Source: Halococcus salsus (GTDB lineage: Archaea > Halobacteriota > Halobacteria > Halobacteriales > Halococcaceae). From it: 64,000 nt of DNA. The notes beneath the pieces are model-generated. The model was given only the letters and a program-made list of their open reading frames with translations, was not told where the DNA came from and did not search any database. Positions 22,334-25,050 of the stretch are shown in pieces. Numbering within the stretch: position 1 is the stretch's first letter; each line of letters starts with the position of its first letter. The stretch is taken from contig NZ_JAAAJC010000001.1 of the NCBI RefSeq assembly GCF_009900715.1, forward strand, positions 361,216-425,215, given 5' to 3'. A program made the translations under genes and the position numbers.

Positions 22334-22378
22334 ATGTACACGTGTGGTGTGGACGTACGTGCGGACGACGAGGAATGA
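22334..22378 (+). other. Possible leader peptide frame
   Basis: ATG 22334 begins a 14-residue frame, MYTCGVDVRADDEE, whose TGA overlaps the ATG of the CHAT-type gene at 22375. Its position at the predicted transcript start suggests translational coupling or control. It is too short for coding statistics. Confidence 0.3.
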
Positions 22379-24459
22379 TACGGCCCTCGTTCGAACCCGT
22401 CGATACCGGCATCGCGGTCATGGACCCGATAGAGCGCCACCAGTACACGCTCTCGACGCCAACGCCGGTCACACCCGACCCCGCCGAGACGGAACCGTTC
22501 CGGTTCCCGGTCGAGACCGCCGTCTCGATCCAGACCAGCGCGTTCTCGCTGCCGAGCGTCGTCACGATACACGTTCGCGACGGGAACGGTACCCCGGTCC
22601 GGACGGCCGAACACTTCGCGGACGAGCACCTGCCCGAAGGGACCTACGGTATCGAACTGAACACGCCGGTGAAGCTCTACCTCATGGTCGAGGGGTCGGT
22701 GGACCTGACCGCCGACGCCGAACGGATGTCGATCGAGTTCGGCGAGGAAGTCGACGTACTGGTGGGCGCGCGCTCACACCACGACCGGCCGGCGGCGACG
22801 GTGACGACGACGTCGGACCCGGAGCACATGATGCAAGCGATTTCGACGTTCGGCTCGGCACTCAAGACGACCTCGCCCGAGCGCTCGTATCCCACGCTTC
22901 GAGGCCACCCGCCCACGGTCGAACTCGGCGAGGAACTCGACCTCGCGGGGCTCGAACCGCCCGACACCGGCGTGATGATCGAGGTACCCCCCGACCTCCG
23001 GTCGGTGTTCGTGGTCGCGCCGCTGGCGTACTACCTCGGTGCGCGGGTGGTTCCGGGCGACCCGCCCCGAATCCGGACCGAGACGGGGTTCGACTACTCC
23101 TTGGACGGTCCCGCCGGCTTCGAGACCACCGTCGAACGCACCCTCAAGCGCGCCTTCTTCCTCGACTGTCTCACCAGAACGGAGGGGTTGTACCCCGTGG
23201 CGCTCCACGAGCGGTCGGCGCTGGAGTCGACGCTAGGGCTCGATTTCGGGGCGCTCTACGACCGTCCGCTGGCGGCCCGGCTCGAAGCCGCCCTCGATAT
23301 CCCTTTCGAGACCATCGAACCACACCTTCCCCAGTGGAAGCTCACCGCCCACGTCGAGCCCACGCCCGACAGCGTCGAGATGCTCCCCTTCCTCGTCGAC
23401 GACCTCGCCGTCGTTCGCTGTAGCGAGACGGAGGCGACCGCGGACCAAGCCGAACCCGTTCCGGCCGACGGCCGGACGACCGACCGTTCCGGCGTGGTCG
23501 GCGCGTTCACCCGGAGCACGAGCCGTGGCGAACCGGCTCGGCACACCGCCCGAACGCGGTTCGTGAAACCCGACGCCGGCACGTCGCTCGAACAGACGTG
23601 GGTCGGCGACGGCACGCCGCTGGGTGCGAGCAAGGCCACGGTCGAGGCCTACCGGAACCGCCTCGACCGCACGCCGACCGAGGGCGACATCACCGTGCGG
23701 GTGGTCTGTAACGACCCCGCGATGGACGAGGAGCGGGGCTTGGTCGATACGATCTACGGCGACCGCGACCTCCCGTTCGACGTCGCCGTCGAGCGCGACC
23801 TCACCATCCGCGAGCTCCGGGACCTCCTCGCGGAACGGACCGACTTCCTCCACTACGTCGGCCACGTGGACGACGGCGGCTTCGAGTGCGTCGACGGCAC
23901 CCTCGACGCCGCGACGCTGGATTCGGTCGGGGTCGACGCCTTCCTGCTCAACGCCTGCCAGTCCTACGAACAGGGGATGAGCCTGATCCGGAAGGGCTCC
24001 ATCGGCGGCATCGTCACCCTCGCCGACGTGCTCAACGCCGAGGCCGTCACGATGGGGAAGACGCTCGCGGGGCTGCTCAACGCCGGCTTCCCGCTGCGCG
24101 CCGCGCTCGAAGTCGCCCGTGACGAGAGCATCATGGGCGAGGAGTACCTCGTCGTCGGCGACGGCGGCTTCGCGCTGGCTCAACCGGCCGGGAGCTTCCC
24201 GAACCTCTGTCGCATCGAACGGACCGGCGAGACGTTCACCGTCGACTATACCATCTTCTTGACCTCCAGACAGGGGATCGGGAGCCTGGTCGTTCCCTTC
24301 TTCAGGGAGAACGACCAGTACTACATCTCCTCCGGGCTCGTACAGACGTTCACGGTCACGGAGGAGGACCTCCAGGCGTTTCTGGAACTGGAGGACGCCC
24401 CCGTCCGGGTCGGGAGCGAGCTGCGCTGGAGCCAGCGGCTGGACCTCGATACGCTCTGA
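22375..24459 (+). CDS. CHAT-domain (caspase-like) protein with a large unknown N-terminal region
   Basis: A 694-residue protein. The C-terminal third looks like a CHAT peptidase of the caspase/separase clan: FLHYVGH puts the catalytic His at 497, LLNACQSYEQG puts the nucleophile Cys at 528, and GGIVTLADVLNAEAV then NAGFPLRAALEVARDE follow as in CHAT proteins. The first 400 or so residues start with short beta-rich segments (FRFPVETAVSIQTSAFSLPS, YGIELNTPVKLYLMVEGSV) and match no family I know. A disordered stretch near 350-400 separates the parts. No signal peptide or membrane segment is seen, so it is probably cytoplasmic. A 45-residue hydrophobic peptide gene converges on it, one base apart. 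Start at ATG 22375 overlaps a leader frame; 22417 is an alternative. Confidence 0.85.
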   Translation: MIRPSFEPVDTGIAVMDPIERHQYTLSTPTPVTPDPAETEPFRFPVETAVSIQTSAFSLPSVVTIHVRDGNGTPVRTAEHFADEHLPEGTYGIELNTPVKLYLMVEGSVDLTADAERMSIEFGEEVDVLVGARSHHDRPAATVTTTSDPEHMMQAISTFGSALKTTSPERSYPTLRGHPPTVELGEELDLAGLEPPDTGVMIEVPPDLRSVFVVAPLAYYLGARVVPGDPPRIRTETGFDYSLDGPAGFETTVERTLKRAFFLDCLTRTEGLYPVALHERSALESTLGLDFGALYDRPLAARLEAALDIPFETIEPHLPQWKLTAHVEPTPDSVEMLPFLVDDLAVVRCSETEATADQAEPVPADGRTTDRSGVVGAFTRSTSRGEPARHTARTRFVKPDAGTSLEQTWVGDGTPLGASKATVEAYRNRLDRTPTEGDITVRVVCNDPAMDEERGLVDTIYGDRDLPFDVAVERDLTIRELRDLLAERTDFLHYVGHVDDGGFECVDGTLDAATLDSVGVDAFLLNACQSYEQGMSLIRKGSIGGIVTLADVLNAEAVTMGKTLAGLLNAGFPLRAALEVARDESIMGEEYLVVGDGGFALAQPAGSFPNLCRIERTGETFTVDYTIFLTSRQGIGSLVVPFFRENDQYYISSGLVQTFTVTEEDLQAFLELEDAPVRVGSELRWSQRLDLDTL

Positions 24460-24460
24460 C

Positions 24461-24598
24461 CTACGGGCCGCTGATACCGCCGTTGTTGCCGGCGGCCACG
24501 GGCCCGACCTGCGTCAGGAGGACCATCAGACCGAACAGCGCCGAGAGGGTTCTGGGGTGGTTCTGCAGGTACGTCCGGAGTTCGTCGGTGTCGGACAT
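24461..24598 (-). CDS. Small hydrophobic peptide, possible partner of the CHAT protein
   Basis: A 45-residue peptide: charged N-terminus (MSDTDELRTYLQNHPR), one hydrophobic helix (about residues 18-36, ending QVGPVAA) and a short polar tail GNNGGISGP. It looks like either a small membrane protein or a prepeptide whose tail is released after a signal-peptide-like cut at VAA. The stop is one base from the stop of the CHAT-type gene on the other strand. From memory, haloarchaea carry families of short hydrophobic peptides with a similar YLxxHPR start and GP end, but I cannot check this. A TATA-like box lies 29-40 bases upstream. Confidence 0.72.
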   Translation of the reverse strand: MSDTDELRTYLQNHPRTLSALFGLMVLLTQVGPVAAGNNGGISGP

Positions 24599-24858
24599 GA
24601 CGTCCTACCCAAGACACGCCACCGATATGAATATTTTCGAAGATATCCTAGATCAACAATTTAGGTCTAATTCGTTGAATAGACGGCACAAAACCACTGA
24701 ATCAACTCGTGGCGTAGAAAATGCATGAGGGAAAAGGGATGGCTGATAAACGACGTAAGTTGGAACGATATCGAGCGCTCAACGGACGTTCGAGCCGGCG
24801 GCTCGTGGGAGAGGCGTGGCTCGACCGTGGACGGTTTTCGAGAACGGTGTTCCGAGGG
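24599..24858. other. AT-rich intergenic patch
   Basis: About 260 bases without a credible gene. The part from about 24625 to 24735 is strikingly AT-rich (ATGAATATTTTCG, AATTTAGGTCTAATTC) against a very GC-rich genome, and holds one of the rare CTAG sites at about 24648. It contains the minus-strand promoter of the 45-residue peptide. The remainder is GC-rich and I see nothing in it. Confidence 0.6.
24627..24638 (-). promoter_or_regulatory. Putative TATA box of the small hydrophobic peptide
   Basis: On the minus strand the sequence GAAAATATTCATATC lies about 29-40 bases before the ATG at 24598, a position expected for an archaeal promoter with a very short leader. Confidence 0.45.
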
Positions 24859-25050
24859 CTACGAGAGCTCTGTTTCCAGGTCGTCCCAGCAGTCGGGACA
24901 CACCTGCTGGTCGACGCAGTACCGCCTGATCTGGGTTTCCTCCGCCGTGATCTGCTTCGACGACCGGGTGGTGTCCTCGACCTCGAGCACGACCCGATGA
25001 CGGGGGCGGCCATCCGGAAGCGGTTCCTCACAGAGTGGACACGGCTTCAT
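24859..25050 (-). CDS. Small zinc-binding protein
   Basis: A 63-residue protein with CPLC at residues 4-7 and CPDC near 51-54, plus one lone Cys before the second pair, giving a likely zinc ribbon. The middle is acidic and helical (VEDTTRSSKQITAEETQIRR). I do not know the family. A strong TATA box (GGTTTATGTACG on the minus strand, 25072-25083) precedes the ATG at 25050 by about 25 bases, so it is probably transcribed leaderless and alone. It lies on the far side of the CHAT/peptide pair from the other small zinc protein. Confidence 0.82.
   Translation of the reverse strand: MKPCPLCEEPLPDGRPRHRVVLEVEDTTRSSKQITAEETQIRRYCVDQQVCPDCWDDLETELS

Follow-up and report, generated by a model that had tools for sequence, protein, structure and literature searches.

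The gene pair described here couples a predicted cysteine protease of the caspase clan with a very small peptide gene that faces it, and in the main clade of the protease family the two are kept together across the Halobacteria. What stays constant in the peptide is a C-terminal tail of about nine residues that ends in Gly-Pro, and not the hydrophobic helix; the leaders that carry the tail are interchanged between lineages, and some precursors hold it in multiple copies. We infer that the tail is a cognate ligand (or substrate) of the protease. The reading that we prefer, at a probability of roughly 0.4 and by analogy with the RRNPP systems, is a module made of a protease and a pro-peptide whose tail would be the cognate ligand of that protease. 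The pair lies in a stretch of 64,000 nucleotides that was analyzed as a whole (the window), and the coordinates of its features are collected in Table 1.

The gene pair and its conservation

The stop codons of the 694-codon and the 45-codon open reading frames are separated by one base, and the two genes are convergent. The genome from which the window was taken contains three CHAT genes; the two paralogues of the window protein share 74% and 61% identity with it. The same genome has two DUF7503 genes, both opposite a CHAT gene. Its third CHAT gene (L002) is opposed by a different small open reading frame, which likewise ends in SGP. A 63-aa open reading frame of zinc-ribbon-like appearance (CPLC/CPDC; 24859-25050, minus strand) precedes the peptide gene on that strand and gave no family match above the cut-off.

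Table 1. Features of the protease and peptide genes, numbered from the first nucleotide of the window
Feature	Position	Strand	Basis
CHAT-type clan CD cysteine protease gene, 694 aa, predicted	22375..24459	+	ORF (ATG at 22375, stop to 24459), fold model, conservation
N-terminal beta-sandwich domain, aa 1-147	22375..22815	+	AlphaFold2 model of the domain alone, pLDDT 95.4
Middle alpha/beta domain, aa 148-360, probable pseudo-caspase half	22816..23454	+	DSSP of the model, structure alignments
Disordered linker, aa 361-391, conserved FTRS motif	23455..23547	+	pLDDT <50
Arg380 in linker, putative self-cleavage site	23512-23514	+	Conservation in relatives
Catalytic CHAT domain, aa 395-603	23557..24183	+	Conservation, structure alignment
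His497 codon	23863-23865	+	Within the catalytic CHAT domain
Cys528 codon	23956-23958	+	Within the catalytic CHAT domain
Acidic Asp551 codon	24025-24027	+	Within the catalytic CHAT domain
Variable C-terminal domain, aa 604-694	24184..24456	+	Entropy 2.1-2.7; covaries weakly with the tail of the peptide
Partner peptide gene, 45 aa, DUF7503 (PF24335)	24461..24598	-	Profile match, pairing across loci
Peptide tail GNNGGISGP, aa 37-45	24464..24490	-	GP ends among peptides; tandem copies in Haloplanus
Peptide leader, aa 1-36: YLxxHPR, hydrophobic segment, AxA-type site VAA	24491..24598	-	Alignment, column counts
AT-rich promoter of the peptide gene, spanning about -75 to -27 relative to the ATG, contains TTCGAAAATATTCATATC	24625..24673	-	Conservation, 129 loci

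The pairing was examined from both sides. All 61 tested DUF7503 loci face a convergent CHAT gene (32/32 plus 29/29, the latter set being every DUF7503 copy in six multi-copy genomes with 3 to 6 copies each). Stand-alone DUF7503 copies were looked for among these 29 and none was found, as each opposes a CHAT gene. In the reverse direction, 115 of 116 distinct main-clade CHAT genes are opposed by a small peptide gene, and the sole exception is an assembly gap (a run of N). Chance pairing was ruled out by a control set of 606 non-CHAT open reading frames, the neighbouring genes within the same fetched loci, where one was opposed by a convergent small open reading frame ending in GP and none by one with an ATG start. 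The distance from stop to stop is 12 bp or less in 110 of 145 loci. The original prediction had proposed that the two genes belong together and had set a check of the neighbours of homologues beforehand; this check bore it out, as main-clade genes keep facing the peptide gene. Two tandem DUF7503 copies adjoin a single CHAT gene at one locus (G012 C1:486534-486796).

Of 391 genomes from the class Halobacteria, 365 have relatives of the window protein and 335 have DUF7503, and none of the 20 listed genomes that are without a CHAT match is among the DUF7503 genomes. In a sample of the phylum, the DUF7503 matches listed all fall inside the order of the window genome, and the peptide was not found outside the class among the listed genomes. 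CHAT relatives without a GP peptide were found in one other family of the phylum (L216-L219); some of these have altered active-site motifs, L218 is without the Cys, and no partner peptide was found for them. A viral origin was considered and rejected, as phage records and viral contigs contained no relatives.

Among 129 loci, the AT fraction upstream of the peptide gene is 0.81-0.95 at positions -38 to -27 (one position 0.69), and another block rich in AT spans -75 to -58. This conserved AT-rich promoter argues that the peptide gene is its own transcription unit. The second block (24656-24673 in the window, and its equivalents) lies about 20 bp upstream of the TATA-like element and is a possible operator. 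In about a third of the named loci, the CHAT gene is directly preceded on its own strand by a gene with DUF7504 (PF24336, numbered next to DUF7503) and HalOD1, most often 40-170 bp away (for example L071, L072, L080, L128, L141 and L264). In Haloferax and Halobellus loci (L118, L121, L083), a HalX response regulator gene lies about 300-360 bp past the CHAT stop, upstream of the peptide gene and in the same direction as it. A constant operon or defence-island context was rejected because the neighbours vary between loci. The neighbourhoods share no constant exporter, importer or receptor gene, and PADLOC gave no match.

The protease

The window protein had no match in Pfam, NCBIfam, PADLOC or PDB sequences. 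The Pfam CHAT profile (PF12770) does not match it at E<=1 and matches 22 of 51 relatives, with a best E of 2.4e-5, and a PDB sequence search for its relatives gave nothing convincing. The AlphaFold2 model of the 694-aa protein (pLDDT 90.1, pTM 0.90) matches gingipain (Z about 20; 20.2), SAVED-CHAT (Z 18.3) and separase (Z 16-18.5), and more weakly TPR-CHAT (Z 12-14), caspase-7 and legumain (both Z about 11.6), and on this model the protein is predicted to fold as a clan CD cysteine protease of the CHAT/gingipain/separase type. His497 and Cys528 are invariant in 51 relatives with identities down to 31%, as are C505, D507, N526 and S530. The assignment to the CHAT/caspase-clan proteases made in the original prediction, together with its choice of these two catalytic residues, is thus upheld. 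In a wider set the catalytic His and Cys are present in 173 of 184 relatives, the remainder being degenerate or composed of the N-domain only. Among paralogues in other genomes (L250-L259, Halorubrum-like g8), the N-terminal 350 or so residues are retained and the His/Cys region is gone; these apparently protease-dead versions have no convincing Gly-Pro peptide gene. Public plasmid records label the protein hypothetical, "CHAT domain-containing" or "caspase family".

The N-terminal beta-sandwich has no Foldseek match under E 1e-3, the best being the N-terminal sandwich of GH31 (E 6e-3). The middle domain holds the most conserved block of the protein (SPERSYPTLRGHPP, aa 167-180, entropy 0.35) and is a probable pseudo-caspase half, an assignment based on structure alignments to TPR-CHAT and separase whose ranges begin at 208-212. 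A TPR was not found in the protein, either in the model or with Pfam. The linker between the middle and the catalytic domains is hypervariable as well as disordered, and 113 of about 122 relatives in the DUF7503-bearing clade retain within it a (D/E)FTRS motif around Arg380. In the same clade, residue 551 is Asp or Glu in 118 of 122 relatives, and it was assigned to the S1-pocket position of separase and caspase by motif alignment rather than by superposition. The conserved linker motif and this acidic residue make self-cleavage of the protease after an Arg plausible, with Arg380 as the candidate; since residue 551 was located by motif, both this cleavage and the S1-pocket role of the residue are putative.

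The partner peptide and its tail

The 45-aa peptide of the window scores 67.7 bits against the DUF7503 profile (curated cut-off 27). Alignment of such peptides gives a common plan, [YF]Lxx[HN]P[RK] followed by a short hydrophobic stretch, QAG, an AxA-type site and a variable tail. At the AxA-type site, V or A occupies position -3 in 93 of 101 peptides and A or G occupies position -1 in 100 of 101. This site and the short hydrophobic segment give the common-form leader the look of a Sec signal peptide with its cleavage site just before the tail. Gly-Pro ends 102 of 113 distinct DUF7503-type peptides, and the residues before it vary freely. The original prediction had correctly described a 45-residue gene; it had missed the DUF7503 identity and had seen the tail as a minor detail, whereas it is the constant part.

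All typical peptides stop directly after Gly-Pro, and the arrest end of SecM is GIRAGP, which the GISGP of the window peptide resembles. The peptide could then be a translation-arrest or secretion-monitor peptide, in which the hydrophobic leader and a Gly-Pro-stop slow the ribosome to sense export or termination and the protease responds downstream. However, the free variation before GP, the position of the hydrophobic segment, which would remain within the exit tunnel, the absence of a controlled gene downstream on the same mRNA (the partner is on the opposite strand) and the internal tandem copies described below, which are not at a stop codon, make this very improbable.

The tail is also found behind leaders of other kinds. 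Among Haloplanus-type genomes, 2 species retain the hydrophobic form (..VAAGNSGAISGP), and at 7 loci a homologous N-terminus (MSESDSGTVA) is followed by 2-13 copies of [YMF][TN]ADGNxGGISGP. Within each of these genes the copies are virtually identical in protein sequence except for the linker residue, and many synonymous codon positions differ, so the protein sequence is under selection. The tandem precursors have the usual look of a multi-copy pro-peptide. Soluble leaders with a CTYSGP end are found in Halococcus and in the L002 paralogue. In a distant CHAT clade (about 33% identical, Natrialbales-type), 10 genes lie opposite peptides with unrelated soluble leaders and a conserved AKRVSTYGGP-like tail, 4 further genes face hydrophobic-leader peptides with the HPR/HPK-plus-helix plan (3 of the 4 ending in GP), and 15 others, about half of the clade, have no such peptide nearby. 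No export signal can be seen in the multi-tail or AKRVSTYGGP forms. The Pfam family matches the hydrophobic-leader form and not the multi-tail or soluble forms.

Since the Gly-Pro tail is kept behind soluble leaders in Haloplanus, Halococcus, L002 and the Natrialbales-type clade, the hydrophobic helix is, judging from these sequences, dispensable. Most members do have a short hydrophobic segment, which in a membrane-effector explanation would be a small pore-former freed by the protease, as in bacterial gasdermins. With pairing and tail persisting in the four groups that are without the helix, a membrane toxin was rejected as the general explanation, and we consider a membrane effector barely credible. 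Of the roles that had been suggested for the peptide in the original prediction, the membrane effector is therefore weakened; a secreted signal, or a ligand, fits the common form better in view of the conserved signal-peptidase-like site.

Multi-copy precursors require cutting, which would be accounted for if the CHAT protein were a dedicated processing protease that frees the Gly-Pro tail or, in the common form, cuts after [HN]P[RK], its product being a peptide signal or an antimicrobial. Such a role is also consistent with the R, K or Q that follows [HN]P in nearly all DUF7503-type peptides and with the acidic residue at the S1-pocket position. However, the Haloplanus precursor L146 contains zero Arg and zero Lys, and residue 551 is unchanged there, so that one P1 rule cannot fit all precursors. 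A single Arg/Lys cleavage rule was rejected on this ground, and a specificity switch in the multi-tail Haloplanus protease was rejected because position 551 and its neighbours are unchanged. Moreover, the CHAT protein is cytosolic by sequence, whereas the common tail would be exported. A dedicated processing protease is in our judgment rather unlikely.

The paralogues of the window genome carry different tails (L001, L002, L003). These paralogue-specific tails in one genome, the several tails per peptide, the strict one-to-one pairing and the need for the tail in every leader context would all suit a guard resembling a toxin-antitoxin system, in which the tail inhibits the protease and loss of a short-lived peptide (for example by viral shut-off) frees it to cause death or arrest. 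Against such a guard, the genes are convergent with separate promoters and do not form an operon, the distribution over the class is not patchy, PADLOC finds no match and the common tail would sit outside the membrane; we regard it as unlikely.

In Haloferax (pN/pS 0.48 for the tail vs 0.11 for the leader) and Haladaptatus (0.74 vs 0.19) the tail is the faster-evolving part, and this is not seen in Haloarcula or Halobellus. Distances between tails show partial correlations with CHAT residues 1-135 (0.21) and 601-694 (0.17-0.22) and not with the core; the two ends follow tail divergence slightly better than the core does, a covariation that is weak because the N- and C-terminal regions themselves evolve fast and the correlation is confounded by rate.

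The ligand model and comparison with known systems

In the ligand model that we prefer, a soluble CHAT-type protease would be made, probably as a zymogen, and the pro-peptide would be produced from the convergent gene under its own promoter. The peptide would usually be exported by its Sec-type leader and trimmed after AxA, leaving about nine residues (here GNNGGISGP). The tail would then re-enter the cell, or stay inside it, and bind the N- and/or C-terminal variable domains of the protease, and this binding would control activation, perhaps by way of self-cleavage in the linker, at the conserved Arg380. The pair would thus work like a propeptide and its intracellular receptor (RRNPP type), with a protease in place of the transcription factor. 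The model draws on the pairing in both directions (61/61 and 115/116, against 1/606 in the control), the Gly-Pro ends, the AxA-type site, the Haloplanus multi-copy precursors, the distant clade in which an unrelated leader carries a conserved AKRVSTYGGP tail, the faster tail in Haloferax and Haladaptatus, the covariation of the tail with both ends of the CHAT protein, and the clan CD fold with its FTRS linker motif. Against it stand the multi-tail and AKRVSTYGGP forms without an export signal, the lack of a constant exporter, importer or receptor neighbour, the tail of Haloarcula and Halobellus that is not faster, the weak and rate-confounded covariation, the half of the distant clade without a peptide nearby and the lack of a TPR peptide-binding fold in the CHAT protein. 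A wider and more doubtful reading is that of a class-wide archaeal peptide signalling, in which Gly-Pro-ended peptides from Sec-type or multi-copy pro-peptides would act as switches of a caspase-like protease; such a system may be the genetic basis, so far missing, for regulated cell death or caspase activity in haloarchaea.

The literature searched contains no mention of DUF7503, nor of CHAT together with haloarchaea, and the Pfam family has no function assigned. The protease half belongs to a known kind. Nothing described in that literature corresponds to the Gly-Pro pro-peptide paired with it or to the multi-copy form of the peptide, in keeping with the original prediction, which had named the pair its best candidate for an undescribed system. 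The protein shares its caspase-type fold and His/Cys dyad with the CHAT and clan CD peptidases (PF12770; separase, gingipain, SAVED-CHAT, TPR-CHAT Csx29; Z 12-20). It differs from them in an N-terminal beta-sandwich without a clear PDB match, in having no detected CRISPR, SAVED or TPR part, and in its partner, a tiny convergent peptide gene. A likeness to Craspase (type III-E; TPR-CHAT and Cas7-11 cleaving Csx30) was seen in the fold of the CHAT part; the neighbours are not constant and PADLOC finds no match. Bacterial gasdermin-protease systems have a gasdermin as partner, whereas the partner here is a 45-aa DUF7503 peptide with a dispensable helix. Toxin-antitoxin genes form operonic pairs, whereas these genes are convergent in all tested loci, and a SecM-type arrest peptide is encoded upstream on the same mRNA, whereas the partner gene here is on the opposite strand.

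The RRNPP systems are defined by a TPR receptor, 250-500 aa long, next to whose gene an exported propeptide is encoded (PMC10075063). The likeness lies in a short propeptide with an export-type leader (export being predicted here from the leader) and a putative C-terminal active part, whose gene adjoins that of a cytosolic partner. The partner here, however, has 694 aa, a beta-sandwich and a clan CD fold, and no TPR; in addition, the haloarchaeal module is class-wide, has a Gly-Pro tail and includes some leaders without an export signal. As the TPR receptor is lacking, RRNPP serves as an analogy and not as a class to which the pair belongs.

The presence of the protease gene in 365 of 391 genomes, in the main clade with a dedicated pro-peptide, points to a core regulatory circuit, one that went unnoticed since both genes are annotated as "hypothetical" or as a DUF. 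Haloferax volcanii has a strong caspase-like activity that is Asp-specific and whose gene is not known (PMC3615174). DUF7503 is present in H. volcanii and CHAT genes occur in many Haloferax species, which makes the CHAT family a candidate source of this activity; residue 551 of the haloarchaeal protein is acidic, and nothing indicates a preference for Asp. If the tail controls the protease, the pair would be a peptide-controlled caspase-fold enzyme in archaea, and both the source of archaeal caspase activity and archaeal peptide signals would become directly testable questions in Haloferax.
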